Of a stretch of DNA of 26,540 bases, positions 8,165-24,991 are shown piece by piece (within the stretch, counting starts at the first letter, position 1; each line of letters begins with the position of its first letter). Source of the stretch: a virus. A program made the translations under genes and the position numbers. The notes under the pieces are model-generated. The model worked only from the letters and a program-made list of their open reading frames with translations, ran no database searches and had not been told where the DNA came from. The stretch spans positions 1 through 26,540 of the IMG/VR virus record IMGVR_UViG_3300028844_006665. The stretch is one strand, 5' to 3'.

Positions 8165-8205
8165 GTAGAAAGTCAAGAAAACCAACGATAGCAATAAAAT
8201 ACACG

Positions 8206-8225
8206 CAATCATGCAAAAATGATTG
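8206..8225. promoter_or_regulatory. Palindromic operator between repressor and cro
   Basis: CAATCATGCAAAAATGATTG: seven-base perfect arms around a six-base centre. It lies between the divergent repressor and Cro-like genes and its right arm covers the first bases of the candidate -35 of the rightward promoter (8223-8228), the right place for a repressor to block early transcription. Confidence 0.6.
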
Positions 8226-8251
8226 TCTTGAGATCTGCGGTGTGGTCTACT
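8223..8251 (+). promoter_or_regulatory. Early rightward promoter (cro side)
   Basis: TTGTCT (8223-8228), a 17-base spacer and TCTACT (8246-8251), four of six consensus matches each. Initiation would fall at about 8258, the A of the Cro-like ATG, again predicting a leaderless message. The -35 overlaps the palindromic operator by three bases. Confidence 0.4.
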
Positions 8252-8257
8252 GCATCT

Positions 8258-8467
8258 ATGACCTTACCCCCATTCTCCCACCAGATCCTGACGGACTTCG
8301 AAGAGCGCGCCCGGAATCTCGGGCTTAACTTCAGCAAGATCTGTCGGCAGGCCGACATCGCCTACAGCACCTACGCGCGTTGGCGGAAAGGTATCACCGA
8401 CCCACTTCGATCGGCGGCAAAGATTGACGCCGTCCTGCGCCAACACGAGGAGCGGGACAATCGATGA
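8258..8467 (+). CDS. Cro-like helix-turn-helix protein
   Basis: A 69-residue protein with one HTH: ILTDFEERARNLGLNFSKICRQADIAYSTYARWRKGITDP, in which helix-turn-helix spacing (SKICRQADIAYSTYARWRKG) is clear at about residues 24-45. The reading frame extends to an ATG at 8219, but that lies inside the operator; the ATG at 8258 gives the usual small-protein length and coincides with the predicted transcription start. It is divergent from the long repressor and first in the rightward early operon, the position of Cro or a CII-like regulator. Its role in the lysis-lysogeny choice is inferred from layout. Confidence 0.7.
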   Translation: MTLPPFSHQILTDFEERARNLGLNFSKICRQADIAYSTYARWRKGITDPLRSAAKIDAVLRQHEERDNR

Positions 8468-8474
8468 GCGGTCA

Positions 8475-8930
8475 ATGTTTAAAGTCCTCGGTGTCGACGT
8501 TGGTCTCGACGGTGCAATCGCACTTGTCGGCCACGGATTTCTCGCTGTCGAAGACATGCCCACAATGGGCAGCGGCCGGCAGCGCGTCATTAACGGTGCT
8601 GAACTCTGCGACATTATTACTAGGTGGGCACCAGACCTCGCCGTCGTTGAGAAGGTACATGCCTTCCCAGGACAGGGTGTCTCGAGTGCTTTTCGGTTTG
8701 GCCAAGCGCTTGGAACCGCCGAAGGCGTCATCACCGGTCTCAAAATACCTATTAAATACGTGTCGCCTGCAGCGTGGAAGCGCAGCTACCGCCTCACATC
8801 CGACAAGGAACAGGCTCGAATGCGGGCCATTCAGCTATTTCCCCACATGTCTGACCGGCTCGGCCGCAAAAAGGACCACGATCGGGCAGAAGCTCTCCTT
8901 ATTGCCGCACTACAACAGGATGGTGAGTAG
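8475..8930 (+). CDS. RuvC-like Holliday junction resolvase
   Basis: A 151-residue protein with the RNase H-fold pattern of RuvC: first acidic residue Asp8 in LGVDVGLDGAIAL, second Glu59 in DLAVVEKVHAFPGQGVSS, and the C-terminal acidic pair in KKDHDRAEALLIA (about residues 134-139). Phage versions resolve branched recombination or replication intermediates before packaging. An ATG at 8424 is in frame but lies deep inside the upstream HTH gene and gives a non-conserved extension, so the start at 8475 is preferred. It lies eight bases after the Cro-like stop. Length is slightly below cellular RuvC (about 170). Confidence 0.85.
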   Translation: MFKVLGVDVGLDGAIALVGHGFLAVEDMPTMGSGRQRVINGAELCDIITRWAPDLAVVEKVHAFPGQGVSSAFRFGQALGTAEGVITGLKIPIKYVSPAAWKRSYRLTSDKEQARMRAIQLFPHMSDRLGRKKDHDRAEALLIAALQQDGE

Positions 8931-9269: not shown

Positions 9270-9586
9270 TGACAGCCACGCCCGGCATCGAGACATGGCT
9301 GCGAACGGCCGAGCCGGGCGAGGTGTACCTCTATTACGTCGGCTTTTTGGCCATCGACAAATCCAAATATACAGACACCAAGCGCCTGCGGACCGCTACA
9401 AAGGCAACGCGTCTTGCCAGAGAGGGCAAAGTCTTCCTCGTTCAGCGCCACCTTGGGAAAGCAAAGTTCGAATATCTCGCCATCAAGGCGAAGCAGGAGA
9501 ACAAGTGCCGCACTTGGTGGAACCGTGACTTCGAGCCGGTCGCCGCTAACGACATTATGGGCGGGGGTAAAACCCGATGCAGCTAA
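9269..9586 (+). CDS. Small hypothetical phage early protein
   Basis: A 105-residue basic protein starting at an ATG that overlaps the previous stop (TGATGA). Visible segments: PGEVYLYYVGFLAIDKSKY, then a Lys/Arg-rich helical part, and FEYLAIKAKQENKCRTWWNRDFEPV. The strand-rich start and the basic middle could bind nucleic acid. It overlaps the following helicase gene by 10 bases, so the two are probably co-translated. No family recognised. Confidence 0.6.
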   Translation: MTATPGIETWLRTAEPGEVYLYYVGFLAIDKSKYTDTKRLRTATKATRLAREGKVFLVQRHLGKAKFEYLAIKAKQENKCRTWWNRDFEPVAANDIMGGGKTRCS

Positions 9587-10968
9587 AGCCCGGAGCATAT
9601 CGCGCCGAATCACTGGTTCTGATGCCACACCAAGAGACACTTCGTGACAGGCTCTTTAATAGCGTCACGCACTTGGTTCACGGCGACCAGGGCATCGGCA
9701 AGACGGCGATCGCCATCACTGCCATGAACAAGCTCGTTAAGGCCGGCCGCATATATAAGCCAATGCTTTGGGTTGGCCCGACCAGCTCAGTGCTGAATGT
9801 CAGCCGCGAAGTCGAGAAGTTTGGCGGCATCGAGGGCCACAGTGTTCGCGTCATAAGAAAGACCGCAGATTGGGCCCCCGCTCGGCCGGGAGAGGTTTTG
9901 GTCATGTCATACGACATGATGGTTCGACTTCTTCCCGAACTGGCCAGATCGATGTTTTCCATCTTTGTCCTGGACGAGGTTCAGTTCTGTAAAAATCCCC
10001 GAACCAAGAGAACAAAGGCCGTGTTTGGCCATCTTTCGCGACCAGGTCTGGCAGCTCACGCTGATTTCTTCTGGGCGATGAGCGGCACACCAGCACCCAA
10101 TCATTTTGGAGAGTTGTATCCGTTCCTGCGGGAAGCGGGCCTCGCCTCCGTTTCTTATGACACCTTTGTCCGACGACACTGCCGGATACGCGAGGATCGG
10201 TTTGGCTACAAGATTGTCGGGAACAATCGCCCCGCGATCGACCAGCTCATGGGCAATGCGTCGGAGGTCTATTCGCGCATTCGTAAGAGTGAAGTCCTTA
10301 CCGACCTACCACCCATTACGTTCAATAATGTGCAGGTATCGGGCGACCGGACGATGCGTAAACAACTCGCGGCCATCGAGGATGGTCTTCGGCCGCAGAT
10401 CGATGCGTTGATAAAGACAATCCGCTACGGCGAGACTCCTCCCGTCGAGGAGGTGGCGTCGCTGCGCAGACTGACAGAGATCGCCAAGGTTGGAGAGGCA
10501 ATCGAGATCGTCAGTGCCGAGCTGTCCGACAGGGCAATCAACAAGATTGTTATCTTTGCGACGCACCGCGACACGATCGCGGCATTGGAGGAGGGGCTTT
10601 CCAAATTCGGTGTGCGCGTCATCCATGGCAGTGTCAGCGTGGCCAAGCGGCAAAGGGCCATAGACGATTTTCAGGATGATCCGACGGTCCGTGTGTTTGT
10701 GGGCCAGACAGTTGCGGCCGGCACGGCGATTACGCTGCATGCCAACGGCGCCTGTCAGGATGTCCTGTTTGTGTCGGCTGACTGGGTTCCATCGAACAAT
10801 GCCCAGGCCGTCGCGCGTGTTCACCGCAAAGGCCAGATCGGCAATGTCCACGCCCGTTTCCTTCATCTCGAAAACTCGATCGATGAAGCAGTCCAACGGG
10901 CCGTTATGCATAAGACCAGAATGTTAAGTGAAATCTTTAAAGATGAAAGGAGCCATCATGCGGCGTAA
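9577..10968 (+). CDS. SNF2-type DEAD/DEAH-box ATPase (phage helicase)
   Basis: A 463-residue superfamily 2 ATPase of the compact SNF2-like type found beside phage replication genes. Motifs in order: motif I HGDQGIGKTAIA with Lys42; motif Ia near LWVGPTSS; motif II DEVQ at residues 133-136; motif III SGTPAPN; then the second RecA-like domain with IFATHRDTI, HGSVSVAKRQRAIDDF, motif V VGQTVAAGTAITL and motif VI QAVARVHRKGQ. Such proteins translocate on duplex DNA; in phages they are presumed to remodel replication or recombination intermediates. It is followed by overlapping small and nuclease genes, the usual SNF2/nuclease neighbourhood. Confidence 0.9.
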   Translation: MQLKPGAYRAESLVLMPHQETLRDRLFNSVTHLVHGDQGIGKTAIAITAMNKLVKAGRIYKPMLWVGPTSSVLNVSREVEKFGGIEGHSVRVIRKTADWAPARPGEVLVMSYDMMVRLLPELARSMFSIFVLDEVQFCKNPRTKRTKAVFGHLSRPGLAAHADFFWAMSGTPAPNHFGELYPFLREAGLASVSYDTFVRRHCRIREDRFGYKIVGNNRPAIDQLMGNASEVYSRIRKSEVLTDLPPITFNNVQVSGDRTMRKQLAAIEDGLRPQIDALIKTIRYGETPPVEEVASLRRLTEIAKVGEAIEIVSAELSDRAINKIVIFATHRDTIAALEEGLSKFGVRVIHGSVSVAKRQRAIDDFQDDPTVRVFVGQTVAAGTAITLHANGACQDVLFVSADWVPSNNAQAVARVHRKGQIGNVHARFLHLENSIDEAVQRAVMHKTRMLSEIFKDERSHHAA

Positions 10969-11167
10969 CAGCATGCGCGAGGCGGATTACCGCTTCAATT
11001 ATCTGGAAGATATAGACCTCGATACCATCGAGCTCGATTATCGGGACGACCCCTGCGTCGTGTTTTTATGTCAAAGTCTTCGGACGGAACGCCGTGACCG
11101 TGCGGTCGAACGGGAGAGTATGGGTGCCGAGATCGACGATCTCAAATGGAACGGCGTCTGCAACTGA
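10958..11167 (+). CDS. Small acidic hypothetical protein
   Basis: A 69-residue protein. Although an earlier ATG exists at 10928, AAAGGAG at 10947-10953 sits just upstream of the ATG at 10958, which is therefore taken as the start. The middle is strongly acidic (YLEDIDLDTIELDYRDDP), with a polar helical end. It overlaps the helicase by 11 bases and its stop overlaps the next ATG by one base (TGATG), so it is a real operon member. No family recognised. Confidence 0.6.
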   Translation: MRRNSMREADYRFNYLEDIDLDTIELDYRDDPCVVFLCQSLRTERRDRAVERESMGAEIDDLKWNGVCN

Positions 11168-12306
11168 TGGCTGCTCATTCAAACATCATGGGCGGCTCGA
11201 ACGCATCGCGACGGATGAATTGCTATGCGTCCTACCGGCTTGAGCTGGAGGCACCGGAACCACCTGCCTCCAAGTTCGCTGTCGAGGGAACGTTTCATCA
11301 CGACGTCATCGAGCAGCACTTCAATGGCAAGTCTTACGCCGAGCTTGAGGGATACACCCGAGACGGTTTTACGCTGACCCAGGAATACATACGCGAACTG
11401 CATTATCCGGCAGTCGCCGCGTGGCAACAGCTCCTGAAAAAGTATGGCGTGGAAGAGGTCGAATACATGACCGAGGCGCGGGTGTCCTATCCGGGCGTCG
11501 ATGCGTTTGGCACAGTGGACGTGCTCGGCACTTCTGACGAATACACGATAATCGGTGACTGGAAGTTTGGCCGCGGCGTGCGTGCCGGACCATCGGCACT
11601 TGAATATCAGCTTCCATTCTATGCGGCAGCGGCGCGCGTGACACCAGACTGTTCGGATATGTTCAGCCCGGACAAGAAAATCATCGTTGCCGCGATCCAG
11701 CCCGCCATGGACATGCCACTGAGTGACCGGGTCATGGAGTATGATGAGGTTGTGGCCTTCGAGAAGAGGGTGCGCGACACCATCCTGATCATGACGGCGG
11801 GGGAAGCTCTCCCACCCACGGCTGGAAAGCACTGTCGTTGGTGCCGGGCGGCCGCATTATGCCCTGCCAAGAAGTCGCTCGCGACCGCAACCGCCGTTAC
11901 CGAAGTCGACAAGGAAAAGCTCAACGCGGATGAGGTTGGTTTTTACCTCAAGATCGCGGACGAGCTGGAACACTGGATTTCATCGATCCGTTCTCATGCC
12001 CACCAACAGTTGGAAGGGGGCCAGGACGTGACCGGCTACAAGCTGGTGCCGAAGCAGGCACGGCGGCGGTGGTCGAGTGTGACGGAAGCCGAACAGATGT
12101 TCGAGCGTCACGGTATCGCGTTCTCAGAGTTTATGGATTCGAAACTGATTTCGCCCGCAAAGGCGAAAAGGGTCTTGAAGGCAAACGGTATCGATGCCGA
12201 CGCCTTCGAGATGTTGATTGTGGCGACCTCAAGTGGGTCGTCACTCGTCCCGCAAGACGATCCCCGTCCTGCAATTACTGACACTATAAGGAATTTAGAA
12301 GTATGA
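11167..12306 (+). CDS. DUF2800 PD-(D/E)XK nuclease, RecB/Cas4-like
   Basis: A 379-residue phage nuclease. The N-terminus MGGSNASRRMNCYASYRLE is the DUF2800/RecB-like entry motif that selects ends; the catalytic core shows FGTVDVLG followed by IIGDWKFGRG (Asp and Lys of the D-x-K pair), then YQLPFYAAA. A C-x2-C-x5-C cluster (HCRWCRAAALCPA) near residue 235 is like the iron-sulfur ligands of Cas4/AddB relatives. The C-terminal 130 residues are helical and may bind DNA. The ATG at 11146 would extend into the previous gene; the ATG at 11167 overlaps its stop and is preferred. It probably supplies an exonuclease for recombination-dependent replication. Confidence 0.85.
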   Translation: MAAHSNIMGGSNASRRMNCYASYRLELEAPEPPASKFAVEGTFHHDVIEQHFNGKSYAELEGYTRDGFTLTQEYIRELHYPAVAAWQQLLKKYGVEEVEYMTEARVSYPGVDAFGTVDVLGTSDEYTIIGDWKFGRGVRAGPSALEYQLPFYAAAARVTPDCSDMFSPDKKIIVAAIQPAMDMPLSDRVMEYDEVVAFEKRVRDTILIMTAGEALPPTAGKHCRWCRAAALCPAKKSLATATAVTEVDKEKLNADEVGFYLKIADELEHWISSIRSHAHQQLEGGQDVTGYKLVPKQARRRWSSVTEAEQMFERHGIAFSEFMDSKLISPAKAKRVLKANGIDADAFEMLIVATSSGSSLVPQDDPRPAITDTIRNLEV

Positions 12307-12974
12307 ATATGTTAGCAGTTTTCGAGAAGAACCGTGAAGCCCTTCAATCCTTTGAGCAGATGGCGCTCGAGGGTGCGCGGGGTGCGTTAAGTTTCCTGAA
12401 GTTCACCAAAGGCATTTGGGTTGCCGGGATGGACGAACAGGAAATCGACCGAGACGAAGAACTGGCACTGGACCCCAAATCAATTTCCAAAGGTGGAATT
12501 TGCTGGAGTGGCGGATCGGTTTTGGACGAGCGATTTGAGACTTTGGCATCGGGTCGAATGGTCAACCTTGGCGAGCTGCCGGACCACGGTCCATACGCCA
12601 ATGATGATGACGGCTGGAAGGCAGCCGTACATTGCAAGTTCAAGTCGCTGACGACTGGTGAAGAGTATTCCTTCTCCAGCACTTCGCACGGCGGCAGGAA
12701 GGCGCTCGCGACTGTGACCAAGGAGTTCGTCGCCCGGATGAAGTCGGGTGAGAGTGATCTGGTCCCGATCGTGCGCCTTTCGTCCGACGGTTATAAGCAC
12801 AAGCTGTATGGCTACGTTGCAACACCGGTGATCGAGATCGTTGGCTGGTCCAACGACGACGATCTGCAGGCGGGTAACGTCGATGTTGTTGAAGAAGTAG
12901 CCGAGGAAGCACCGACGCCAAAAAGGCGCAAGGTTGCCGCCTCGGCCATCAGCAACGGGTCGCTGCCTAGCTAA
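12303..12974 (+). CDS. Phage early protein of unknown function
   Basis: A 223-residue protein overlapping the nuclease stop by four bases. Residues 20-190 look globular and strand-rich, with KGGICWSGGSVLDERFETL, a central KAAVHCKFKSLTTGEEYSFS block and a GYKHKLYGYVATPVIEIVGW end. The last 35 residues are acidic then basic and disordered (VVEEVAEEAPTPKRRK). An acidic disordered tail and a place between a DUF2800 nuclease and the polymerase resemble phage single-strand-binding proteins, but no motif proves that. A terminator-like hairpin follows. Function is therefore unassigned. Confidence 0.65.
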   Translation: MNMLAVFEKNREALQSFEQMALEGARGALSFLKFTKGIWVAGMDEQEIDRDEELALDPKSISKGGICWSGGSVLDERFETLASGRMVNLGELPDHGPYANDDDGWKAAVHCKFKSLTTGEEYSFSSTSHGGRKALATVTKEFVARMKSGESDLVPIVRLSSDGYKHKLYGYVATPVIEIVGWSNDDDLQAGNVDVVEEVAEEAPTPKRRKVAASAISNGSLPS

Positions 12975-13050: not shown

Positions 13051-13110
13051 ATGGAAAAACCGGTCGTACCAAATCGATCCTCCTATCAAACTATCGAAGG
13101 CCGTCGATGA
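13051..13110 (+). CDS. Possible 19-residue leader peptide
   Basis: ATG at 13051 encodes MEKPVVPNRSSYQTIEGRR and stops at a TGA (13108-13110) that overlaps the ATG of the replication protein (ATGA). The overlap suggests translational coupling. No good ribosome-binding site is seen, and another tiny frame (from 13043) covers the same DNA, so this is tentative. Confidence 0.25.
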   Translation: MEKPVVPNRSSYQTIEGRR

Positions 13111-16100
13111 TCGGGCCCGCTGAAGTAGCGGCTGCGATTGGCGGCAATTCCCGCGAAGGCGATGGATACGTTGCCTTCTGTCCACTGCATGAAGCAGACG
13201 GGAAATCACACAACCCCTCCCTGATCCTTTCAGAAGGTCATTCTAAACCGGTCATCGGTCATTGCCGGGCGGGGTGCTGCCAGGATGACATTAATGCTGC
13301 GGTTGATGAGATCGTCGAGCGCCTCGAAGCAGGCGAAACCGTGACTCCGATCGAGAGCAAAGTCGAAATCAAGAAGTCAGGAAACAAGCTGCACGCCCGT
13401 ATCCTGAGGGAGGGTGCCCCCACGGACGCGTATCAATATGACGACATTGACGGGAATTATGTTGTCACGAAGATCCGCTGGGAAGCCGTCATCGACGGGC
13501 GGCGTGAGAAGACATTCCAATTCTGTAATCAGCAACTGCCTGCAACGAGCCCGTCCGCATTCCGCATGCCGGAAGCTGCGGCAATGCCTTTATATAATGC
13601 GCACGCTCTAAGAGATCTGGAGTCTGACGACCTCGTCGTGATTTGCGAGGGCGAGAAGGACGCCAATACCATGCTGGGCCTCGATTACGTTGCGGTATCG
13701 ACACATAACGGCGTAGCAGGGTGGAGCAGTCAGAGCGCTGGCTGTTTGCAGGGTCGCCATGTAGCCATCGTGCCAGACAACGACGACGCAGGACACAAAT
13801 ATGCCAAGAAGGTAATCAAAGCGCTCTCTCCATTCGCCAAAAGCGTGAAGGTCATCGAGCTGCCCGGACTGAAAGATAAGGGTGACGTTACAGACTGGGT
13901 TGATGCCGGCGGGACCGAGCAACAATTTTGGGAACTCTACACCGGGCAGTCTGAGGAGGATCTTGGTGGCCCCAATCCTGAGTGGAGAACGACACTCTCG
14001 CGAAACGCGCAGGGCGCCATACGATCGAATGACTTTAATTTAAATATCATGCTGTCGCGGTCCCCCGAGTTTCACGGGCTGTTTCGTTATAACCACTTTC
14101 AAAATGTTATTGAGCTGTGGCGAGCGATACCCGGCAGTGATGACACTGGCCCGTTCCCAAGAGTTTGGCAGGATACAGACGAGACGGATGTCCTGGTCTG
14201 GGCGCAGCGAGCAGTGTTCCCGTCAATGGCGCGCTCCAAGATCATGCCGGCCGTCCAGGCTGTCGCCGCTGACAATGGCTATGACCCGCTGGTCGACTAT
14301 CTCGACATGCTGGCGTGGGACGGGGAGGAACGTCTTGATTGCTTCCTGCAGGAATATCTCGGGGCTGAAGGTGTCGACCGTTATATAAGTGCGGTGGGTC
14401 GTATGTGGGCCATATCCGCAGTTGCTCGTGCCTATCAGCCCGGATGCCAAGTCGACACCATGCTCGTACTGGAGGGACGCCAGGGGCTTTATAAGTCGTC
14501 GGCTTTACGAGCCCTGGTGCCGCATGAAGAGTGGTTCTCTGACGACATCAGCTCGATGCGCGGCGATAAGGACGACAAGCTGGCGCTGTTCGGGCGCATG
14601 ATCATCGAGATCAAAGAACTCGAGGCGCTGCGGAAGGCTGAGATTGGCGCTATCAAATCGTTTATCGATACACGGGTCGATAAGATCCGTGTACCTTACG
14701 GTAGATCGGTCCAGTCCTTTCCGCGGCGGTGTGTCATGGCCGGGTCGTACAATCCAACGGGCCACGGGTATCTGAAAGATGCATCCGGCGGTCGGCGTTT
14801 CTGGCCCGTAACAATCAAACATCTGGCCGACATCGATGGGCTGCTGGCGATTCGTGATCAGCTATGGGCCGAGGCGGTGGTGGCCTATAAGACCGGTGAA
14901 AAATGGTGGACGTTCGACCGCGACCTCATGAAGCTTATCGAGGCAGAACAGGAAGAGCGCTATCAGGTCGAACCGATTGAGGAGTTGGTTCACAGTTACA
15001 TCGATAACGAGTGTCTTGCGGATGATCAGGATGGTGCGCACAACATCCGTCGATCGTGGATACCCCGCAAAGAGCCATTAGACACATTCTTCACGCATAA
15101 CTTCTGTGAGGATGTATTGCTTCGATCGTGGGACCAGGTGAGGCGCCCTGATCTGAATATTATTGGTCAGGCGATGACCCGCATCGGGTGGACAAAGGGC
15201 AAATTATGGAACGCTCGCATCAGCAAAACGAGCACCGGGTGGAAGCGTCCTGACACTGAAAACCGACCTCACCCTCCGAGAAAAACCACCTCACCCTCTG
15301 ACAAAATTGCCGCAAAAAGTGATGCACAGGCATCCGCTGCGTTGCGTGGGAAGGTGCAAAACGCCGCCGTGGAGACGGAAAACGTAGCCGTTTTGTCGAA
15401 AACCTCACCCTCTGACCCCCAAAGGGTGAGGGAGGGTGAGGTAAAGGGTGAGGTGCTAAGTTATTCCAGCGCAACAGAAAAAGGTAAAACCTCACCCTCC
15501 TCACCCTCTTTTCCTATTAACTTTGTGGAAAGTAATGAGGGGTTAGATACAGGGGTATATATAAAGTTTTGGGACACTGAGGGTGAGGTTGGCCTCCACG
15601 ACGCTCGCTCGGCACTGAAGAGCGCCCTCGACGACGGGATCGTCGGGTTCGACCTTGAGACGACGGGACTGTCGCCGGTCGACGACAGCCGGGCCCGACT
15701 GATGCAGGTCTGGCGCGACGATCACTGTCACGTTTTCGATCTCGATGTGTTTGGTGGCCTCGAGGCATTCGGCGATCTGCTGGAAGGCTCCGACCTTGTC
15801 GCCTTCAACGCACTTTTCGAAATGAGGTGGCTCAGGGCTGCGGACATTGATGTCGTCCCTCACGACCTGATGTTAGCCTGGTCGGCGGTTTATGGCGGCA
15901 CATTAAAAATAACGCTCGAGCATGTTGTGAAGGAGCTGCTGGGCGTTGAATTGGACAAGACGATGCAGAAGTCGGACTGGTCGGGTGAGTTGACCAAAGA
16001 TCAGATCCAGTACGCCTTCGATGATGCGTACTTCACGCTCATGGCTTGGCGGAAGCTGACGGGCATCATGGCCCCGGAGCAGGTTGCCGGATACGAGCTA

Positions 16101-17345
16101 TTCAAGAATTCACAACGGCCCGTCATGAGAATGATGGAAGCCGGCGTTGGGTTCGACATCGACGGCCATGCCGAACTGCTCTCACGATTTGAACGAAAGT
16201 TCATCTGGGCGGAAGATTGGTTAGCGCGCCACGTACCCGACGTGAAGAACTGGTCGAGCTCTTCGCAGGTTGCGAAATGGTTGAACGATTCTTTGCCTGA
16301 GAACGTGAAGGGACGGTGGCCTCGTACCGAAAAGACACTGGCCATGAAGACCGGTGCCGATGCCTGTAAGCAATTCATCCTCGATGTCGACCGCGACCTT
16401 CGCCGCGTCTTTTGGGCCTACCAAATTCTCCAAACCTATAGGAAATACATAAGCACCTATGGCGAGAAGCTTGTTCGCAATCATTATCGGGATAGGCGCC
16501 TCTATGGGAACTTCAGGATCGGCCGAGCCATCACCGGGCGAATGGCCTCCGAGAAACCAAACCTCCAGAACATGCCGGGCAGGGGTCCTATAGGAGCTGC
16601 GTTTCGCAGTCTGTTTATAGCACCGCCTGGTAGCCGTCTGGTAATTGCTGATTACAGTCAGATCGAGGTTCGCGTCGGTGGCATACTGGCTGATGAGCCA
16701 GCCTTCAAAGAAATGTTTGAACGTGGCTACGATGTTCACGCCGCGACGGCCGCGCTGATGCTCGGCAAGGAATACGATGAGGTTTTTGACAGCGAAAAGA
16801 AAAGTGTCCGTCCGGAGTACAAGCATGCGCGGTCGGCAGCGAAGGAAATTACATTCGGAATGCAATACGGCATGGGTGACCGGACGCTTGCCAGCAAGTT
16901 GAACCTCACGGTCCGGGAGGCGCGTCAGGAAATACGCAAATGGGAAGAGAACTTTCCCAAGGTAACAGAATGGAGAGAGAAGAGTGCGGAGTATGGTGCT
17001 CGCAATAAGGGGCTGGTGATGCCGAGCGGCCGCACGATTACTCTCGATTATAGACCGTCTCCACAAGCCTGTTACAATTATCCGGTTCAAGGCACTGCCG
17101 GCGACGTGATGTATGCCGCACTGGTCGAATTGGATCGGCGCCTCGATGAGGCGGACATCGATGCAGTGCCATTGTTGGTCGTTCACGATGAGATCGTGCT
17201 TGAGGCGGCAGAAGAAGATGCGGAGGAAGCGGCGAGGATACTCGAAGAGGCAATGGTCGCCGGGTTCAGGAAACTGTTCCCGAACGGCGGCATCAACAAT
17301 TTGGTCGAAGCGAGTGTCTGTAGCACGTGGGCAGATAAATCATGA
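13107..17345 (+). CDS. Primase-helicase-exonuclease-DNA polymerase fusion
   Basis: One uninterrupted frame of 1412 codons. Domains in order: primase-type zinc finger (Cys25, His28, Cys53, Cys57); TOPRIM at about 176-265 (Glu181 in CEGEKD, Asp224/226 in PDNDDAG); VirE/D5-type ATPase at about 310-700 with Walker A GRQGLYKS (457-464) and an acidic strand MIIEIKE; a low-complexity Ser/Pro/Lys linker at about 709-830; DEDDy 3'-5' exonuclease at about 835-965 (Asp849/Glu851 in GFDLETTGL, NALFE, YAFDDAY); family A polymerase to the end, with motif A DYSQIEVR (Asp1182), motif B RSAAKEITFGMQYGMG, motif C VVHDEIVLE (Asp1361). It would make primers, unwind, proofread and extend. These functions are usually on separate phage proteins. 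In exonuclease motif II the usual Asp is Glu. Confidence 0.93.
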   Translation: MIGPAEVAAAIGGNSREGDGYVAFCPLHEADGKSHNPSLILSEGHSKPVIGHCRAGCCQDDINAAVDEIVERLEAGETVTPIESKVEIKKSGNKLHARILREGAPTDAYQYDDIDGNYVVTKIRWEAVIDGRREKTFQFCNQQLPATSPSAFRMPEAAAMPLYNAHALRDLESDDLVVICEGEKDANTMLGLDYVAVSTHNGVAGWSSQSAGCLQGRHVAIVPDNDDAGHKYAKKVIKALSPFAKSVKVIELPGLKDKGDVTDWVDAGGTEQQFWELYTGQSEEDLGGPNPEWRTTLSRNAQGAIRSNDFNLNIMLSRSPEFHGLFRYNHFQNVIELWRAIPGSDDTGPFPRVWQDTDETDVLVWAQRAVFPSMARSKIMPAVQAVAADNGYDPLVDYLDMLAWDGEERLDCFLQEYLGAEGVDRYISAVGRMWAISAVARAYQPGCQVDTMLVLEGRQGLYKSSALRALVPHEEWFSDDISSMRGDKDDKLALFGRMIIEIKELEALRKAEIGAIKSFIDTRVDKIRVPYGRSVQSFPRRCVMAGSYNPTGHGYLKDASGGRRFWPVTIKHLADIDGLLAIRDQLWAEAVVAYKTGEKWWTFDRDLMKLIEAEQEERYQVEPIEELVHSYIDNECLADDQDGAHNIRRSWIPRKEPLDTFFTHNFCEDVLLRSWDQVRRPDLNIIGQAMTRIGWTKGKLWNARISKTSTGWKRPDTENRPHPPRKTTSPSDKIAAKSDAQASAALRGKVQNAAVETENVAVLSKTSPSDPQRVREGEVKGEVLSYSSATEKGKTSPSSPSFPINFVESNEGLDTGVYIKFWDTEGEVGLHDARSALKSALDDGIVGFDLETTGLSPVDDSRARLMQVWRDDHCHVFDLDVFGGLEAFGDLLEGSDLVAFNALFEMRWLRAADIDVVPHDLMLAWSAVYGGTLKITLEHVVKELLGVELDKTMQKSDWSGELTKDQIQYAFDDAYFTLMAWRKLTGIMAPEQVAGYELFKNSQRPVMRMMEAGVGFDIDGHAELLSRFERKFIWAEDWLARHVPDVKNWSSSSQVAKWLNDSLPENVKGRWPRTEKTLAMKTGADACKQFILDVDRDLRRVFWAYQILQTYRKYISTYGEKLVRNHYRDRRLYGNFRIGRAITGRMASEKPNLQNMPGRGPIGAAFRSLFIAPPGSRLVIADYSQIEVRVGGILADEPAFKEMFERGYDVHAATAALMLGKEYDEVFDSEKKSVRPEYKHARSAAKEITFGMQYGMGDRTLASKLNLTVREARQEIRKWEENFPKVTEWREKSAEYGARNKGLVMPSGRTITLDYRPSPQACYNYPVQGTAGDVMYAALVELDRRLDEADIDAVPLLVVHDEIVLEAAEEDAEEAARILEEAMVAGFRKLFPNGGINNLVEASVCSTWADKS
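15267..15588. repeat. CCTCACCC repeat cluster in the linker region, candidate origin
   Basis: The 8-mer CCTCACCC occurs five times on the plus strand (from 15267, 15289, 15403, 15490 and 15499, each extended to CCTCACCCTC) and four times as its complement GGGTGAGG (from 15424, 15434, 15446 and 15581). Opposed copies at 15403-15412 and 15432-15441 can form a hairpin. All lie in DNA encoding the variable linker between helicase and exonuclease. The following 15520-15565 stretch is AT-rich. Iteron clusters inside the initiator gene are known from lambda O; here the same role is proposed by analogy. Confidence 0.6.
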
Positions 17346-17824
17346 CGGCGGCCGTACAGAATAAATCAGCGATACGCATCAACGAAGACACCGTCATCGA
17401 AGAGACGCCCCAGGCGGGCGTGTTCCGCAGACGGCGGATCGGCCTGCTCGAGCGTTGGGCTGACGAGGGGGTTATCACACAAAGACAACTCGACGCGGCT
17501 GACGCGTTCGGTGCGATCTTCGAGCGCGCGCAGCTCCGCGAGCGGTACGCGATGTCGACGTCTGCGATAGATCGGGTCGATGGCGGCGGCAGCGGCGGCG
17601 AGGATAGTCGATCCGCCGGGCTCTACGACGCTCGAGAGCGGGTCATCGAGGCGTTGGCGCTCTTAGGCGACAGTATGGGCCCAGTGGTCTGGGATGTCGT
17701 CGGATCCGGTCTCAGCCTGCGGGAGCATGTATCGAGACAGGTGGGCGTGACACGGGTCACGGTTCACGAGGCACGTGGACGGTTGATCGCGGGGCTCGAC
17801 ATCCTGGCACGGGCGTGGCTTTGA
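17342..17824 (+). CDS. Small HTH-like regulator at the end of the early operon
   Basis: A 160-residue protein whose ATG overlaps the polymerase stop (ATGA). Residues 30-65 are helical (RRRIGLLERWADEGVITQRQLDAADAFGAIFERAQLRERY), and the C-terminus LREHVSRQVGVTRVTVHEARGRLIAGLDILA has helix-turn-helix spacing. This layout, with the GLLERW-like and WDVV-G-SL segments, resembles DUF6456-type alphaproteobacterial proteins. A Gly/Ser-rich insert (DGGGSGGED) separates the halves. Last in the early operon, it could switch on later genes; that is positional inference only. Confidence 0.55.
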   Translation: MTAAVQNKSAIRINEDTVIEETPQAGVFRRRRIGLLERWADEGVITQRQLDAADAFGAIFERAQLRERYAMSTSAIDRVDGGGSGGEDSRSAGLYDARERVIEALALLGDSMGPVVWDVVGSGLSLREHVSRQVGVTRVTVHEARGRLIAGLDILARAWL

Positions 17825-17987: not shown

Positions 17988-20009
17988 ATGCACCGCTTGC
18001 TCGCCATCGCAGCTCTCGTTCTATCCTTCGGCATATCGTCTGCCGAGGCGGCCAAGCGTGTTGCATTGGTGATTGGTAACAACAGCTACAAAACACTTCC
18101 TGACCTGGACAACGCGCGAAAGGACGCTGACGGAATTGCATCCAAACTCCGGAGCCTGGGTTGGGATGTCGTCTTGAAGAAAGATTTAAGCCGGCGGCAG
18201 GCCTATCGACAAATCGCGACGTTCGAAAGCAAGCTCCGGGATGCCGAAGTGGGTCTGGTTTATTATGCGGGGCATGGCATTCAAAAGGATGGCAAAAACT
18301 ATCTGATACCATCCGATGCCGAGATAGAGGTCGAGGAGGATCTGCGGTCGGAAGCCTTTACATCATCGGACATTCTTGAAGCGATGGAGAAAGCGGGCGC
18401 TCCGATGAACATCGTCATCCTGGACTCCTGTCGGGACAATCCGTTGCCAAGACGGTCCCGTTCGGCTGAACGTGGTCTTGCCGCTCCCTCGCTGCCGGCG
18501 GGTATTAAAGGCACAGCGATTGTGTTCTCTGCTGGTCCCGGACAGGTGGCAATGGATGGGCCGAAGAACGGACATGGTGTGTTTACGGGCGAGTTGCTGA
18601 AGGTGCTGGATAGACCGGGATTAAAACTCGAAGAGGTCTTTAAACAGACCGCTCGGCAGGTGGCGGTCCGGACCAACAGCAAACAGAAGCCATGGATGAA
18701 TTCATCGGTGACGAGCGATTTTTATTTCCAGGAAGAGAAGGCTACGCCGGCTGCTTCTGTGCCCGCTGCAGATAAGGAGACAGTGTTCTGGCAGTCGATA
18801 GCAAACAGTGATCGCGCTGGGGATTATAAAGCCTACCTATCGCAGTATCCAAGTGGAGCTTTCGCAGCGCTCGCTCGCAGTCGTTTGTCCGCACTAAAGG
18901 AGACTAAAACGGCGAGCCTGTCTCCACCAAATTACACGATCGAGGCAATGGACGAGACGCTGGTAGCGCTGCGTTCAGCGAACGTGCGTGAACGGCCTAC
19001 GACATCTTCCGCAAAGTTGGCGACCCTAAAATCAGGTTTTGCAGTCGAGGTGACGGGTAAGACACAGTTTGAAGGTAAGGACTGGTACCGGATCGCGATG
19101 TCTGGCCGCAGCGCTTATGTCTTTGGGTCGTTACTGGGTGAGAAAGCGACCCCGGTGGTGGGCGTCTACCCATCTCTGGCACCGGGCAAGACGTTCCGGG
19201 ACTGCGCGGATTGCCCGGAAATGGTGGTGATCCCATCAGGTTCATTCAGGATGGGTGATTTGAGTGGTGGTGGTTACAAGTATGAAAAACCGGTTCACAA
19301 GGTGCGGATCGGTTACAGTTTTGCGGTTGGAAAATACGAGGTAACGCGAGGAGAATTCGCAAAGTTCATCACGGAGACAGGCTACGATGCGGGCAACTCC
19401 TGTTATGTCTGGTCGGGTACGAAGTGGGAGAGCCGGTCAGGTAAAACCTGGAGGGATCCGGGATATAGCCAAACTGATCGAGATCCTGTGGCCTGCGTGA
19501 GCTGGGACGATGTAAAAGCGTATGTTGACTGGATGTCTCGGAAGAGTGGCAAGGAATATCGTCTTCTGAGTGAGTCCGAGTGGGAGTACATGGCACGGGC
19601 TGGGAGTACGTCGAAATATCCATTTGGTGCCAGTGATACAGCTCTTTGCCAACACGGGAACGGAGCGGATCAAAGTACGAGTTTTGATTGGCGTAATAAG
19701 TCTTGTAATGATGGGGTTGGTGAGAAGACATCCCCGGCGGGAAGTTATAAGGCTAATAAATTCGGTGTCTATGACACGGTCGGTAATGTCTGGGAGTTGG
19801 TAGAAGACTGCTGGAACAAGAACTACCACGGCGCACCCATTGATGGCAGTGCATGGACGAGCGGCGGTGACTGTTCAAAGCGCGTCTTGCGGGGCGGTTC
19901 CTGGTACAGCGGTCCTAGGCTCCTCCGTTCCGCGCTCCGCAACTGGAACGATGCCTCGTTTCGGTACAACCTCCACGGGTTCCGGATTGCCAGGACGCTT
20001 TCGCGCTAG
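17988..20009 (+). CDS. Secreted caspase-SH3-FGE protein, probable DGR target
   Basis: A 673-residue protein. A signal peptide (about residues 1-21, LLAIAALVLSFGISSAEAA) predicts export. A C14 caspase-like domain follows at about 22-245, with catalytic His96 in YYAGHG and Cys148 in LDSCRDNP. A spacer (about 260-300) contains YLSQYPSGAFAALARSRL; then a bacterial SH3 domain at about 318-385 (ALRSANVRERP...SGRSAYVFGSLLG). The C-terminal half is a formylglycine-generating-enzyme (FGE) type C-type-lectin fold from about 405 (PEMVVIPSGSFRMG, EVTRGEFAKF, LLSESEWEYMARAG, YDTVGNVWELVED), ending in RVLRGGSWYSGPRLLRSALR and GFRIARTLSR. That end is where DGRs diversify such proteins. The fold would be the binding face and the caspase the effector. 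Base composition is close to the phage part. Confidence 0.85.
   Translation: MHRLLAIAALVLSFGISSAEAAKRVALVIGNNSYKTLPDLDNARKDADGIASKLRSLGWDVVLKKDLSRRQAYRQIATFESKLRDAEVGLVYYAGHGIQKDGKNYLIPSDAEIEVEEDLRSEAFTSSDILEAMEKAGAPMNIVILDSCRDNPLPRRSRSAERGLAAPSLPAGIKGTAIVFSAGPGQVAMDGPKNGHGVFTGELLKVLDRPGLKLEEVFKQTARQVAVRTNSKQKPWMNSSVTSDFYFQEEKATPAASVPAADKETVFWQSIANSDRAGDYKAYLSQYPSGAFAALARSRLSALKETKTASLSPPNYTIEAMDETLVALRSANVRERPTTSSAKLATLKSGFAVEVTGKTQFEGKDWYRIAMSGRSAYVFGSLLGEKATPVVGVYPSLAPGKTFRDCADCPEMVVIPSGSFRMGDLSGGGYKYEKPVHKVRIGYSFAVGKYEVTRGEFAKFITETGYDAGNSCYVWSGTKWESRSGKTWRDPGYSQTDRDPVACVSWDDVKAYVDWMSRKSGKEYRLLSESEWEYMARAGSTSKYPFGASDTALCQHGNGADQSTSFDWRNKSCNDGVGEKTSPAGSYKANKFGVYDTVGNVWELVEDCWNKNYHGAPIDGSAWTSGGDCSKRVLRGGSWYSGPRLLRSALRNWNDASFRYNLHGFRIARTLSR
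19881..19997 (+). other. Putative DGR variable region
   Basis: The last ~117 coding bases before the stop encode the FGE binding surface. Codons where DGR template repeats usually have AAC/AAT are here TAC, AGC, GGT (19905-19913), CTC, CTC, AAC, GAT, TTT, TAC, AAC, CTC and CAC: nearly all NNC or NNT, as adenine-specific mutagenesis would leave. Constant positions (RGGSW, LRSA, GFRIAR) are intact. The end, GGGTTCCGGATTGCCAGGAC, is the expected place for the initiation-of-mutagenic-homing sequence. No template copy was found in the window. Confidence 0.6.
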
Positions 20010-20098: not shown

Positions 20099-20220
20099 AA
20101 TTTCAGCTGGTTAACTCAGAGTAGCTTCCAATGCCTCGCGAGAAGATCAGGTCCTGCGATCATACGACCAGTAACGATAAAACCGTTATTTGGGCCGGAT
20201 GGGGCCAGCGCGACGGCGTA

Positions 20221-20381
20221 ACCTACCCACACACACAAAAATCCACTAAACTGATTTCTATGAGGAAACTAACCGCCACCATCTGTCTGACCTTTGCCGT
20301 GCTTCTTGGAAGTGTGGGGATGAGTGCGAGTGCTGATTACCAAAAGGATCTAACCGCATACAAGAGTGGTGATTACGCAAC
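20221..20381 (+). repeat. Export-leader module, copy 1
   Basis: The upstream sequence CTACCCACACACACAAAAATC... plus ATG at 20260 and codons for MRKLTATICLTFAVLLGS, continuing in near-identity with copy 4 to GGTGATTACGCAAC (ends 20381), after which the two sequences part abruptly. This is the longest shared stretch between copies. Confidence 0.8.
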
Positions 20382-20412
20382 ATTTTGTAATACCGAAGGT
20401 GGCGATGACTAA
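20260..20412 (+). pseudogene. Truncated Sel1-family secreted protein remnant
   Basis: A 50-codon frame: signal peptide MRKLTATICLTFAVLLGSVG, then ADYQKDLTAYKSGDYAT, the start of a Sel1-repeat protein as in the gene at 23495. At base 20381 homology stops and the frame runs through CNTEGGDD to a TAA. The following lipoprotein gene starts inside this tail (ATG 20405). So only the leader and the first 20 mature residues of a Sel1 gene survive. The export leader is intact, so a short secreted peptide could still be made. Confidence 0.7.
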
Positions 20413-20989
20413 TTTGATAAAAGCAAAGGTTTCCAATTTATCTGCTACAGCAGTGCTTTTAATTTCTCTCGCTGTCACCGGATGCCAAACCACAGAAAAT
20501 AGTTTTGAGCCGCCAGATACATCACTGCGTATGATCCAAAGCACTGCTGATTATTGTCAAATTACAGATTCAAATTTTGCAATTGATTTAGATTATCTGG
20601 AATTATCGGTTTGGTGGTCTGATAAATGTGAGGATGGTTCTCCGAAAGGTTCGGGGAGACTGATTATATTTAAGGGTGATGCAATAGTTGAAGAATATGT
20701 TGGTAAAATGGAGAAAGGTCCAGTTGGAATGGCGAGACATGGCCAGGGTGTCATTACCCATTATTTTAGAGAAACTATAATGGGTGAATCTAAACAATTT
20801 CCTCGCTGGAGATATGAAGGTGAATTCCTATTTAATGAGCGAACTGGCAATGGGTTTTACACAAATGAAACCGGCTTGCGAATTAAGGGCTCGTTTAAAG
20901 ACGGTAAACCTAATGGAGTTTGCGCTGTAACGTTCCCTAACGGCACCTCTAAAAATATTGAGTTTGATGAAGGAAAACCAATCCAGTAA
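20405..20989 (+). CDS. MORN-like repeat lipoprotein
   Basis: A 194-residue protein. The frame is open from 20366, but the ATG at 20405 starts a proper lipoprotein signal: MTNLIKAKVSNLSATAVLLI then SLAVTGC, with lipobox Cys at about residue 27. The mature part contains MORN-like units: KGSGRLIIF, HGQGVITHY, WRYEGEFLFNERTGNGFYTN and IKGSFKDGKPNGVCAVTFPNG. MORN repeats are structural and can bind lipid or partner proteins. The gene is AT-richer than its surroundings and begins eight bases before the stop of the truncated Sel1 leader frame, so it may be translated by coupling from it. It looks inserted into a Sel1 gene. Confidence 0.7.
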   Translation: MTNLIKAKVSNLSATAVLLISLAVTGCQTTENSFEPPDTSLRMIQSTADYCQITDSNFAIDLDYLELSVWWSDKCEDGSPKGSGRLIIFKGDAIVEEYVGKMEKGPVGMARHGQGVITHYFRETIMGESKQFPRWRYEGEFLFNERTGNGFYTNETGLRIKGSFKDGKPNGVCAVTFPNGTSKNIEFDEGKPIQ

Positions 20990-21202
20990 GGAATCTCTTA
21001 TTGGCCGAGAAAAAATATGCGCAGCGTGAAATTAGAAACTCTTCAATGATAGCAGCTGGGGCTGTTCAATTCACAACGAGAATAGTCAAGTATATCGGAA
21101 AACTCCGTTAATACTGAACAAATCTAGCACTCTCTTGAGATGATGAACCAGGCTTTTAAAGATAATAGCAGATATAGGTTAGCCTTATGGGTAACGCAGA
21201 CT

Positions 21203-21296
21203 ACACAGGTATGCCAAATCCACTGAACTCATTTCTATGAAAAAACTGACCGCAATATTCTGTCTAACCATTACCGTGCTTTATGGGGCTACGGGA
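21203..21296 (+). repeat. Export-leader module, copy 2
   Basis: A diverged copy: upstream ...GCCAAATCCACTGAACTCATTTCT, ATG at 21237, then codons for MKKLTAIFCLTITVLYG. It is the least similar of the five upstream parts. The end of the signal has changed to GATGC, converting it to a lipoprotein signal. Confidence 0.75.
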
Positions 21297-22610
21297 TGTC
21301 AGACATCTACAGTTCTGTCCTATTCAGGCCAGTCAGGAGGGAGCCTGCGGCCCTGCACAGGACACCCTGAATCACTTCTATGGACTTATTGTCGGGGATC
21401 CTACCGCCTTAGCAATGGCGAGAGTTATGTTGGAGATATTATCAATGGGAAACCTGGCGGAAAAGGAGAAGTTACGTTCAGTGCACCCCATCCTGATGCA
21501 GGACAGAAATTGGTTGGTGAATTTACAGAGGGCAAGCTTTTAAAGGGAACAGTAACAAACAGGAGACCTCATATTTATGCGGGTTTAGAAAAGTCTGGTA
21601 AATTTTTAGACGGTAAACTTTATGGGAATGTAATTGTTATATGGCGTGTACCACATGCATTGGCGGGTCAGAAATACACTGGTGAAGCGAGAGATAACAA
21701 GCGGCATGGGCAAGGGGTACAAACGTATCCCAAAGGAGGAGTGGACGAAGGTATTTGGCAAGATGGTAGATTTATAAAGCCGCAAAAAACGACTAGTGAA
21801 TTTTTGGCGAAAAGCCGTAAAGAAATTGCCAGTCTTAAAAATCAGAACCAATCCAAACCCAAACAGGTTGCCAAAAGACCTGAACCCAAGAAGTCACCAC
21901 CACCTAAATCGGGTTACACAGGTTCTGGTTTCTTTGTCTCCAAACTTGGTCACATTATTACCAATGAGCATGTGGTCCGTCAGTGCGGTTCAGTGACTGT
22001 CGGAGACAATGCTAACAAACAGATTAGTGCATCCATTCTGGAGAAAGATAAACGCAACGACCTTGCTCTTCTGCGTATATCCTCCACCGAGATGGCATCT
22101 GCAGAGACCAAATCACTGATAAGTAAACTAGGTGCCAAAAAACTTGGACTGAAACTTGTTCCCCTCGCATCTGGTGGACTGATGCGTTCAGATGACATTG
22201 AACTCGGTGAGAGTGTAATGGTTGCGGGTTATCCTTACGGGGAACTGTACAGCAATACCATCAAGGTTACAGGTGGAATGGTGAGTGCTGTAAAAGGTAT
22301 GGGTGATGACAGTGCTCAGTTCCAGATGGATGCTGCGGTTCAACCCGGCAACTCTGGCGGTCCTATCTATGACGAGAATGGAAACATTGTCGGTGTGGTC
22401 ATATCCCAACTGAACAAACTGAAAGTCGCAAAGACGATTGGGTCACTTCCAGAGAATGTGAACTTCGGTATCAAGGCATCCACCGTGAGACAGTTCCTGA
22501 CCTCTGCTGGATTACCCACCAAGTGGTCTAATCGGACGAAGAGAAAGTCCACAAAGGAATTGGCACAGATTGCCAAGAACCAGACCGTGATGGTGGTCTG
22601 TAATCCTTGA
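21237..22610 (+). CDS. MORN-repeat trypsin-like protease lipoprotein
   Basis: A 457-residue protein. The leader shared with neighbouring genes ends in LYGATGC, a lipobox at Cys21, so export and lipid anchoring are expected. Residues 50-185 hold MORN units (YVGDIINGKPGGKGEVTF, LVGEFTEGKLLKGTV, YTGEARDNKRHGQGVQTYPKGG). A Lys/Pro-rich linker (about 205-228) leads to a trypsin-like HtrA-type protease with the full triad: His245 in ITNEHVV, Asp275 in RNDLALLRI, Ser373 in PGNSGGPI. No PDZ domain follows. It is probably a periplasmic or surface protease targeted by its MORN part. Codon use and AT content match the other cargo genes. Confidence 0.85.
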   Translation: MKKLTAIFCLTITVLYGATGCQTSTVLSYSGQSGGSLRPCTGHPESLLWTYCRGSYRLSNGESYVGDIINGKPGGKGEVTFSAPHPDAGQKLVGEFTEGKLLKGTVTNRRPHIYAGLEKSGKFLDGKLYGNVIVIWRVPHALAGQKYTGEARDNKRHGQGVQTYPKGGVDEGIWQDGRFIKPQKTTSEFLAKSRKEIASLKNQNQSKPKQVAKRPEPKKSPPPKSGYTGSGFFVSKLGHIITNEHVVRQCGSVTVGDNANKQISASILEKDKRNDLALLRISSTEMASAETKSLISKLGAKKLGLKLVPLASGGLMRSDDIELGESVMVAGYPYGELYSNTIKVTGGMVSAVKGMGDDSAQFQMDAAVQPGNSGGPIYDENGNIVGVVISQLNKLKVAKTIGSLPENVNFGIKASTVRQFLTSAGLPTKWSNRTKRKSTKELAQIAKNQTVMVVCNP

Positions 22611-22613
22611 TGA

Positions 22614-22720
22614 GTTCTCTACCCACACACTCAAAACACTCTAAATCCATTCCTATGAGAAAACTGACCGCAACACTCTGTCTGACGATTGCTGTGCTTC
22701 TTGGAATGACGGGGATGAGT
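22614..22720 (+). repeat. Export-leader module, copy 3
   Basis: Upstream CTCTACCCACACACTCAAAA, ATG at 22655, codons for MRKLTATLCLTIAVLLGMTG, ending near ATGAGT (22720). Immediately after, sequence becomes extremely AT-rich and unrelated to the other copies. Confidence 0.85.
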
Positions 22721-23269
22721 TCCAAAATGTTAAAGTTTATTAAATATATTTCTACTTTTTTAATATGCGTATCAATTGGATTAGGTTATTTATTTTCTGA
22801 TAATTTATCTTTCGCTGAAAATATAAAATACATGGAAGAGAAATTAAAATATTTAAAACAAAAAAAACAACTAGAGTCTCAAATAGAAGTAATAAATAAA
22901 AGATTAATGGACTTGGATAAGCAGTATAAAACCAGTGGGAAAATAAATAATACAACCAAAGATAAGAAAATTGATAATTCTAAATTAAAAAATGTATTTG
23001 GTAAGAATTACCTTATGAAGGGTGAAACTGATACTGGTTTTTGGGAAATAAGCGCTCTTGCTGATGGTACATTAGAACTATCCATGAGTAATGGATATTC
23101 AGATTATGGTAAATGGTGGATGGAAGGTAATACTTGGTGCCGAAAATTTGATGAAGCACGGAATTCTGTTACAAGTTGTTATATGATACAGCATGTCGAA
23201 GATAATAAATATTTGATTGAAAAAACCAAAGGTAATGGAGTTGATAAGACAACCGTCACCATTGACTGA
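22655..23269 (+). CDS. Leader fused to an AT-rich coiled-coil exported protein
   Basis: A 204-residue frame. Residues 1-24 are the shared export leader. A second Met (ATG 22727) then starts another full signal sequence, MLKFIKYISTFLICVSIGLG, so the payload brought its own. After that comes a coiled coil (ENIKYMEEKLKYLKQKKQLESQIEVINKRLMDLDK), a polar spacer and a C-terminal domain of about 85 residues with strand pattern (GFWEISALADGTLELSMSNG, WWMEGNTWCRKFDE) and two Cys (TWC, TSC) that could form a disulfide. From 22727 on, the DNA is far more AT-rich than the leader. Translation may begin at either Met. No family recognised. Confidence 0.65.
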   Translation: MRKLTATLCLTIAVLLGMTGMSSKMLKFIKYISTFLICVSIGLGYLFSDNLSFAENIKYMEEKLKYLKQKKQLESQIEVINKRLMDLDKQYKTSGKINNTTKDKKIDNSKLKNVFGKNYLMKGETDTGFWEISALADGTLELSMSNGYSDYGKWWMEGNTWCRKFDEARNSVTSCYMIQHVEDNKYLIEKTKGNGVDKTTVTID

Positions 23270-23313
23270 TTAGACCAAAGACCATTGCTGAAGGTCCTTC
23301 TGGACATCGCATT

Positions 23314-23344
23314 AGACCGCAGTTTTTCCTCTCTGCGGTCTTTT
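23314..23344 (+). terminator. Rho-independent terminator
   Basis: AGACCGCAG (23314-23322) and CTGCGGTCT (23333-23341) form a perfect nine-pair stem around TTTTTCCTCT, followed by TTT. It ends the transcript of the coiled-coil gene. Confidence 0.85.
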
Positions 23345-23453
23345 GCGTGCTTATCTAAAAAAGATGAAAAAGAAGATGCTTCCGTTGTGATGTAAATCTC
23401 CTATCCAACGAGATTTCCAACTGACCTGTGGGTCTTTGATACGGAGACATTTG

Positions 23454-23615
23454 TTCCTCTACCCTCAAACTCAAATCCCTCTAAACTCATTCCGATGAGA
23501 AAACTGACCGCAATATTCTGCCTGACGATTGCCGTGCTTCTTGGAAGTATGGGGATGAGTGAGAGTGCTGATTTACTAAAGGGTGCTTTCGCATACAAGA
23601 GTGGTGATTACGCAA
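23454..23615 (+). repeat. Export-leader module, copy 4
   Basis: Upstream TTCCTCTACCCTCAAACTCA..., ATG at 23495, codons for MRKLTAIFCLTIAVLLGSMG and on through AYKSGDYAT, shared with copy 1 up to GATTACGCAAC (ends 23615). This copy is followed by an intact Sel1 gene and probably shows the original arrangement. Confidence 0.85.
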
Positions 23616-24553: not shown

Positions 24554-24605
24554 GTTAGAACTCCACTCAGACTGCTAATGACTTTAACAAACATAAGGAA
24601 AATTA

Positions 24606-24887: not shown

Positions 24888-24894
24888 GGTCAGG

Positions 24895-24991
24895 TTCCTC
24901 TACCCACACACTCAAAACCCTCTAAATCCAATTCTATGAAAAAACTGACCGCAACACTCTGCTTGACCCTTGCCGTGCTTTTTGGAAGTGA
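24895..24991 (+). repeat. Export-leader module, copy 5
   Basis: Upstream TTCCTCTACCCACACACTCA, ATG at 24936, codons for MKKLTATLCLTLAVLFGS. The upstream 40 bases are nearly identical to copy 3. None of the five copies has a recognisable Shine-Dalgarno sequence; the pyrimidine/A-rich upstream sequence is what is conserved. Confidence 0.85.

Follow-up and report, generated by a model that had tools for sequence, protein, structure and literature searches.

Several systems are known in which the functions of a replication fork, or an initiator and its origin, are brought together. Prex is a single-chain enzyme of primase, helicase, exonuclease and PolA (PMC8113025, PMC6523293), and the lactococcal phage 1706 encodes GP55, a four-in-one single-chain replicase of the type helicase-AEP-PolB, for which the authors term the co-existence of four activities unprecedented (PMC12205980). 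The Rep helicases of staphylococcal pathogenicity islands (SaPIs) have a C-terminal domain that recognises iterons directly downstream of their own gene, and Cch2 of SCCmec binds iterons likewise (PMC7581432). In phage lambda the origin is located inside the initiator gene O (PMC6022878). Here we describe a replicase gene in the virus record IMGVR_UViG_3300028844_006665 of IMG/VR, of which positions 1 to 26,540 were analyzed (26,540 nucleotides, referred to as the window). It is probable that in this gene an initiator, a helicase, a primase and a polymerase are fused across their own replication origin, which would be the DNA encoding the protein linker. The gene and its parts are as follows:

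13107-17345, plus strand: fused replicase gene, 1412 aa, with the order primase, VapE helicase, linker, 3'-5' exonuclease, family A DNA polymerase
13179-13277, plus strand: CHC2-type zinc finger (C25, H28, C53, C57), kept in all six members of the family
13638-13880, plus strand: TOPRIM domain of a DnaG/T7-gp4-like primase (E181, D224, D226), from Pfam Toprim_2, a profile match and a confident fold
14301-14963, plus strand: VapE-like AAA+ helicase domain with Walker A K463-S464 and Walker B E501/E504, from Pfam and Foldseek
14964-15254, plus strand: C-terminal domain of the helicase half, winged-helix-like in the AlphaFold model, proposed to bind the iterons
15266-15589, both strands: iteron array ACCTCACCCTC / GAGGGTGAGGT, proposed origin, which also encodes the protein linker
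15509-15568: AT-rich segment within the array (GC 32% versus 52% for the record), candidate unwinding element
15612-16061, plus strand: 3'-5' exonuclease domain with D849/E851, E905 and Y969/D973, from Pfam DNA_pol_A_exo1 and a motif scan
16239-17261, plus strand: family A DNA polymerase with D1182 in motif A, R1242-K1246-F1250 in motif B and D1361 in motif C, from Pfam, a motif scan and structure matches

All four domain kinds, primase, helicase, 3'-5' exonuclease and polymerase, are located in one open frame of 1412 codons without a stop (13107-17345, plus strand). Pfam assigns Toprim_2 to residues 178-258 (8e-5), a VapE-like domain to residues 399-619 (PF05272, 3e-68), exo1 (DNA_pol_A_exo1) to residues 836-985 (1e-14) and DNA_pol_A to residues 1045-1385 (7e-61) of the 1412-aa protein, and PHROGs and Pfam agree on TOPRIM, VapE-like helicase, 3'-5' exonuclease and family A polymerase. 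A preliminary description of this DNA had named the uninterrupted frame, a primase zinc finger with a TOPRIM domain, and a complete family A polymerase with motifs A, B and C, all of which are confirmed here. The primase part has the DnaG-type features, a CHC2 zinc finger and the TOPRIM acids, and its TOPRIM part matches DnaG (2au3, 1.3e-5) and the T7 primase (1nui, 6e-5) by profile. The polymerase domain resembles the structures of Taq/Klenow and of the Prex polymerase. According to a motif scan, the family members carry the CHC2 ligands, the TOPRIM EGEKD/DxD motifs, Walker A and B and the polymerase motifs A, B and C, and as far as the motifs tell, the catalytic residues of the replicase are intact, apart from a change of the ExoII acid. 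The preliminary description had assigned the exonuclease to the DEDDy type. There is indeed a 3'-5' exonuclease domain, but instead of the acids D-E-D-D plus Tyr it has the pattern D-E-E-D-y, with Glu as third (ExoII) acid (E905, 15819-15821) in all six family members; the same Glu is present in 4 of 56 other phage PolA frames in which the motif was found. Having Glu905 instead of Asp, the enzyme may differ in proofreading strength. Residue 1250 (16854-16856) is a Phe and appears to be equivalent to position 762 of E. coli PolA, as judged from motif B and not from a full alignment. The residue type at PolA 762 is discussed as a lifestyle marker (PMC6302109), and the replicase with Phe1250 is found in a phage record that also carries an integrase.

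The ATPase of the N-terminal half had been described as VirE/D5-type. It is an ATPase, but of the VapE/PriRep1 type and not of the D5 type, according to Pfam and the match to 7pds, the structure of PriRep1 from a staphylococcal pathogenicity island on double-stranded DNA. An AlphaFold model of this half, built from 53 sequences and with a pLDDT (predicted local distance difference test) of 90, has this PriRep1 hexamer on DNA as its best solved match in Foldseek (E 5e-31, TM score 0.72 by target length), and in a profile search 7pds is found with 4e-98, followed more weakly by DnaG and the T7 primase. These matches mark the N-terminal half as a DnaG-like primase joined to a hexameric initiator helicase of the self-loading kind, rather than to one of the D5 type. 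A VapE AAA+ domain with Walker A and B motifs, as is typical for the VapE/PriRep1 initiator helicases, is present, and a DnaB_C domain is absent from the replicase by both Pfam and Foldseek. The model ends, just before the linker, in a domain with helices at residues 663-670 and 680-692 and strands at 696-702 and 707-713, and the profile alignment runs into the C-terminal domain of 7pds.

In the linker DNA, AGGGTGAGG/CCTCACCCT recurs about nine times, counting both strands, and it is found nowhere else in the 26.5 kb window. The copies are located at 15266, 15288, 15402, 15489 and 15498 on the plus strand and at 15422, 15432, 15444 and 15579 on the minus strand, and they fall in more than one reading frame. 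The 9-mer AGGGTGAGG has 9 copies in 350 bp of linker DNA, the next best window across the 26.5 kb having 3, and an 11-mer gives 8 matches versus 0.34 expected. The repeats are clustered beside an AT-rich element, as in iteron origins, and follow directly after the helicase coding region, as in PriRep1-type systems; the AT-rich segment also has an equivalent at the homologous position of the fused relative L002. The repeats themselves differ from phage to phage, being ACCTCCCACTC in L002, TGGCTCAACCTGT in L007 and TGGGGTAAC in L191, three relatives with the same fusion, and on the analyzed stretch of each of these contigs the linker is the most repeat-dense place, for L191 by a narrow margin (21 versus 19). 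From 15402 on, the repeats of the window and of L002 are positionally matched with a constant coordinate offset of 5738, and they have changed in concert on both strands, thereby altering the peptide (TSPS to TSHS, EGEV to EWEV). When synonymous codons were shuffled with the peptide kept fixed, the observed repeat content was reached in 0 of 2000 shuffles for each of the four fused members. Since the repeats are phage-specific and on both strands, have changed in concert and exceed the codon shuffles, it is the DNA rather than the peptide that seems to be under selection. The linker had been described as an ordinary low-complexity junction left by gene fusion, but this view is not supported: its DNA is an iteron array on both strands with a phage-specific sequence.

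The fusion is not restricted to the window. L002, an IMG/VR contig from a different metagenome, encodes the same fusion with 1393 aa, 59% identity and the same gene neighbourhood, and L007, a prophage-like contig in a metagenome-assembled genome titled Methylophaga, encodes it with 1400 aa and about 40% identity. The fourth fused member is L191 with a frame of 1382 codons, and the linkers of the fused relatives differ from one another. L008 and L109 have the same two halves in the same order as adjacent separate genes with a gap of 2 bp. All six members, four fused and two split, group in a single clade whichever half is used for the tree (support 100/100 and 100/99), and therefore the two halves have travelled together. 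In the tree of the N-terminal half the split pair is weakly nested inside the fused members (87/84 and 90/90), and the tree of the C-terminal half does not resolve fusion versus fission. The joining of the replisome core in one polypeptide stands as a conserved fusion, which may have come before or after the split state. The loci were gathered by similarity to the query and the contigs are fragments. When the complete protein was searched as a single sequence against viral and genome contigs, no relatives were obtained; they were recovered with half of the protein as query, with alignments and with a DNA motif. Among the records kept, no fused relative with at least 80% coverage was found in isolated phages (best 5000 records) or plasmids, and in a sample of 399 Pseudomonadota genomes L007, the seed, was alone (0 of 398 others). 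One more gene of this polymerase family is found, truncated, at the end of the contig L189 (IMGVR_UViG_3300007509_000085), where its final 267 codons are present.

Repeats at the 3' end of VapE genes are also found outside of this family. In a survey of 49 non-redundant VapE loci outside the fused and split members, in which the single most repetitive 350-bp window was determined per locus, this window was located at the VapE 3' end in 21 of 49 loci, where 3.7 were expected (0 of 200,000 simulations). No excess was seen at the VapE 5' end (4 of 47, 7.8 expected) or the PolA 3' end (2 of 69, 5.1 expected). On the PolA 5' side the number was a little above expectation (16 of 64 versus 10.2, P 0.037), in part because in some loci, such as L115, the repeats precede PolA. 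Among the VapE loci L009-L106 there are many 3'-end repeat arrays with often GGGACA- or GTGGTGACA-like cores, which are putative origins. Of five annotated phages with the PolA-VapE order, only L198, the Corynebacterium phage IME1320_01, possesses such an iteron array at the 3' end of VapE. Near 8200-8550 it carries GTTGTCACA eight times after the gene for a VapE-type primase, which is the most repetitive place of that locus. The 3'-end repeats of these VapE loci agree with SaPI Rep and Cch2, and the fused genes would be cases in which the reading frame runs through such a site.

The both-strand iteron array is therefore most likely a replication origin. According to the reading that we prefer, one polypeptide would unite a primase of the DnaG/T7 type and a self-loading hexameric initiator helicase of the PriRep1/VapE type with a 3'-5' exonuclease and a family A polymerase, and the DNA for the linker between helicase and polymerase would be the origin of the phage. 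The helicase half would bind the iterons through its winged-helix-like C-terminal domain, after which helicase rings would assemble and the AT-rich segment would melt; the TOPRIM domain would then prime, the tethered polymerase would extend, and the SSB-like (single-stranded DNA-binding), exonuclease and SNF2 neighbours would assist. The role of the array as origin, its binding by the replicase and the action of the enzyme as one undivided chain are inferences. In such a chain, priming, unwinding and extension might be coupled in cis, as the preliminary description had proposed. Several points weigh against this. The split relative L008 has no significant 9-mer excess, the fold search with the C-terminal domain alone gave 7pds as best match with a non-significant E of 0.57, and more than half of the surveyed VapE loci are without a 3'-end repeat signal by the most-repetitive-window statistic. 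The same holds for the fact that repeat clusters on both strands also act as operators, that a repressor gene is present in the module and that the linker repeats could be the sites of another protein. With a real fusion, they might then be operators or other regulatory sites, serving for example autoregulation or the S24-type repressor encoded at 6191-8128, with the origin elsewhere. We consider this unlikely, as the repeats are located 2.1 kb inside the gene and not at a promoter, occur nowhere else in the window and share the VapE 3'-end position with unrelated, unfused VapE loci, and as the helicase is closest to an origin-binding initiator.

Even less credit can be given to the idea that the linker is a flexible, repeat-rich peptide which has grown by slippage after gene fusion, with DNA repeats that simply follow the peptide repeats. 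Linkers are often variable in length and low in complexity, and L007 does have tandem PQVEP units, but the copies occupy both strands and more than one reading frame, the excess remains with the peptide fixed, the repeats of the window and L002 have changed in concert, and a repeat-rich tail is already present in the split gene of L109. That the single frame is an artefact of assembly or sequencing joining two genes has next to no probability. The idea could draw on the two separate genes of the close relatives L008 and L109, but an assembly join was rejected, because L002, L007 and L191 encode the full-length fusion on three further, unrelated contigs with identities from 59% down to about 40% or less and with distinct linkers; what would have overturned the preliminary description, a stop or frameshift overlooked in the linker or two genes joined during assembly, can thus not be upheld. 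An alternative that is compatible with the linker origin is that the fused protein is cut, or that the polymerase is also internally started, so that the working enzymes are separate. The precedent of Prex, whose primase domain is reported to be proteolytically matured, shows that such chains can be cut after synthesis, an in-frame GTG at 15525 is a possible separate start of the polymerase, and the close relatives work as two genes, all of which speak against one intact chain. However, a Shine-Dalgarno sequence or other ribosome-binding site before this GTG is not evident and the frame was kept open in four diverged members, so that we regard separate enzymes as doubtful, with perhaps one chance in a few.

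Besides the VapE-PolA fusion, we found a second one of different composition. L113 (3121-7659), L115 (2794-7344) and L126 (2317-6828) have single frames of about 1510 aa with an AEP Prim-Pol, a central region in which a Walker A-like motif was seen by eye, a 3'-5' exonuclease and PolA. Ahead of the exonuclease, the linkers of L113 and L115 likewise contain inverted repeats that surround an AT-rich stretch, with a repeat content far higher than after codon shuffling; in L126 the excess is marginal. Since the parts N-terminal to PolA have no match to the VapE family, this fusion looks convergent with that of the window; in isolated phage records it was not found with at least 80% coverage. The chances are about even that the single 4.2-kb gene of the window is nearly a complete replicon with its origin in the linker DNA, and that this plan arose at least twice in phages, as VapE-PolA and as AEP-P-loop-PolA, from unrelated primases and helicases.

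The replicase gene is accompanied by the following neighbours:

8424-8930, plus strand: RuvC-like Holliday junction resolvase of the same module (phrog_1770, 6e-29)
9577-10968, plus strand: SNF2-type helicase of the same module (Pfam, PHROGs)
11146-12306, plus strand: exonuclease, DUF2800/PD-(D/E)XK (Pfam, PHROGs)
12303-12974, plus strand: probable single-stranded DNA-binding/annealing protein, from synteny with the Gp2.5-like gene of P2559Y
17342-17824, plus strand: DUF6456 protein directly after the replicase (Pfam), homologous position in L002

The protein encoded at 12303-12974 matches phrog_9528 (1e-22), and the label nucleotidyltransferase of that group may be wrong here. In the very long 645-aa protein encoded at 6191-8128 on the minus strand the C-terminal S24 peptidase/repressor domain alone was recognised. 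Directly to the right of the replication module, a caspase-like peptidase is fused to SH3 and FGE-sulfatase (SUMF1-like) domains (17988-20009), which is probably host DNA or cargo. It is followed by a tandem cluster of paralogs (20131-25625) for several secreted MORN/trypsin and Sel1-repeat proteins with a nearly identical signal peptide, MRKLTA-FCLTIAVLLGS-G. At its right end, the record carries part of a serine resolvase gene (26221-26472, minus strand).

If the proposed reading is true, the odd linker would be accounted for as an origin that is read through by the ribosome, and one gene could be tested as a self-contained plasmid replicon, with uses in minimal replication systems and isothermal amplification. 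For many phages with VapE helicases, inspecting the 3' end of the VapE gene would be a rule for finding the origin, and L198 is a named phage suited to origin testing. Moreover, the pairs of fused and split relatives would allow testing the effect of tethering the polymerase to the helicase.

Compared with the known systems, the single-chain architecture is not unprecedented, as Prex and GP55 precede it. As in Prex, a single chain runs from a primase through a helicase and a 3'-5' exonuclease to a family A polymerase. The primase is likewise a TOPRIM primase combined with the exonuclease and polymerase, and the polymerase half matches the Prex structures 7sxl/5dkt (4e-30 to 5e-30, residues 845-1384). 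However, Prex is a eukaryotic, nuclear-encoded and plastid-targeted enzyme (apicomplexan plastid replication-repair enzyme) with a Twinkle/T7-like helicase, whereas the helicase of the phage protein is a VapE/PriRep1 AAA+ protein and not of the Twinkle/DnaB type, and we know of no report of an origin within the Prex gene. GP55 differs by its AEP primase, its family B polymerase and the order helicase-primase-polymerase, and its parts are non-homologous to those of the protein described here, in which neither an AEP primase nor a family B polymerase was found by Pfam and PHROGs. Thus, the replicase belongs to neither the Prex nor the GP55 family, but its architecture suggests that it works like both, and it would be a third, unrelated build of a single-chain replicase beside them. 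With SaPI PriRep1/Rep and SCCmec Cch2 it shares the helicase core and iterons that come right after the helicase part, and perhaps also a C-terminal domain that would bind them. Those helicases are without a fused polymerase and have their origin outside the coding region, whereas here the reading frame crosses the proposed origin. As in lambda gene O, the proposed origin is located inside the sequence that encodes the initiator; lambda O, however, recruits host enzymes and does not itself provide a helicase, primase or polymerase. The same gene set is present in the widespread phage module of exonuclease, SSB, PolA, VapE, nuclease and SNF2, as in Croceibacter phage P2559Y, but there a separate PolA comes before VapE, whereas here VapE is followed by PolA in one gene. 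As the common PolA-VapE order is the reverse of that in the fusion, simple loss of a stop codon in this arrangement was rejected as its source. Single-chain replicases as such are therefore already known, but this set of domains together with the proposed origin in the linker appears to be new.
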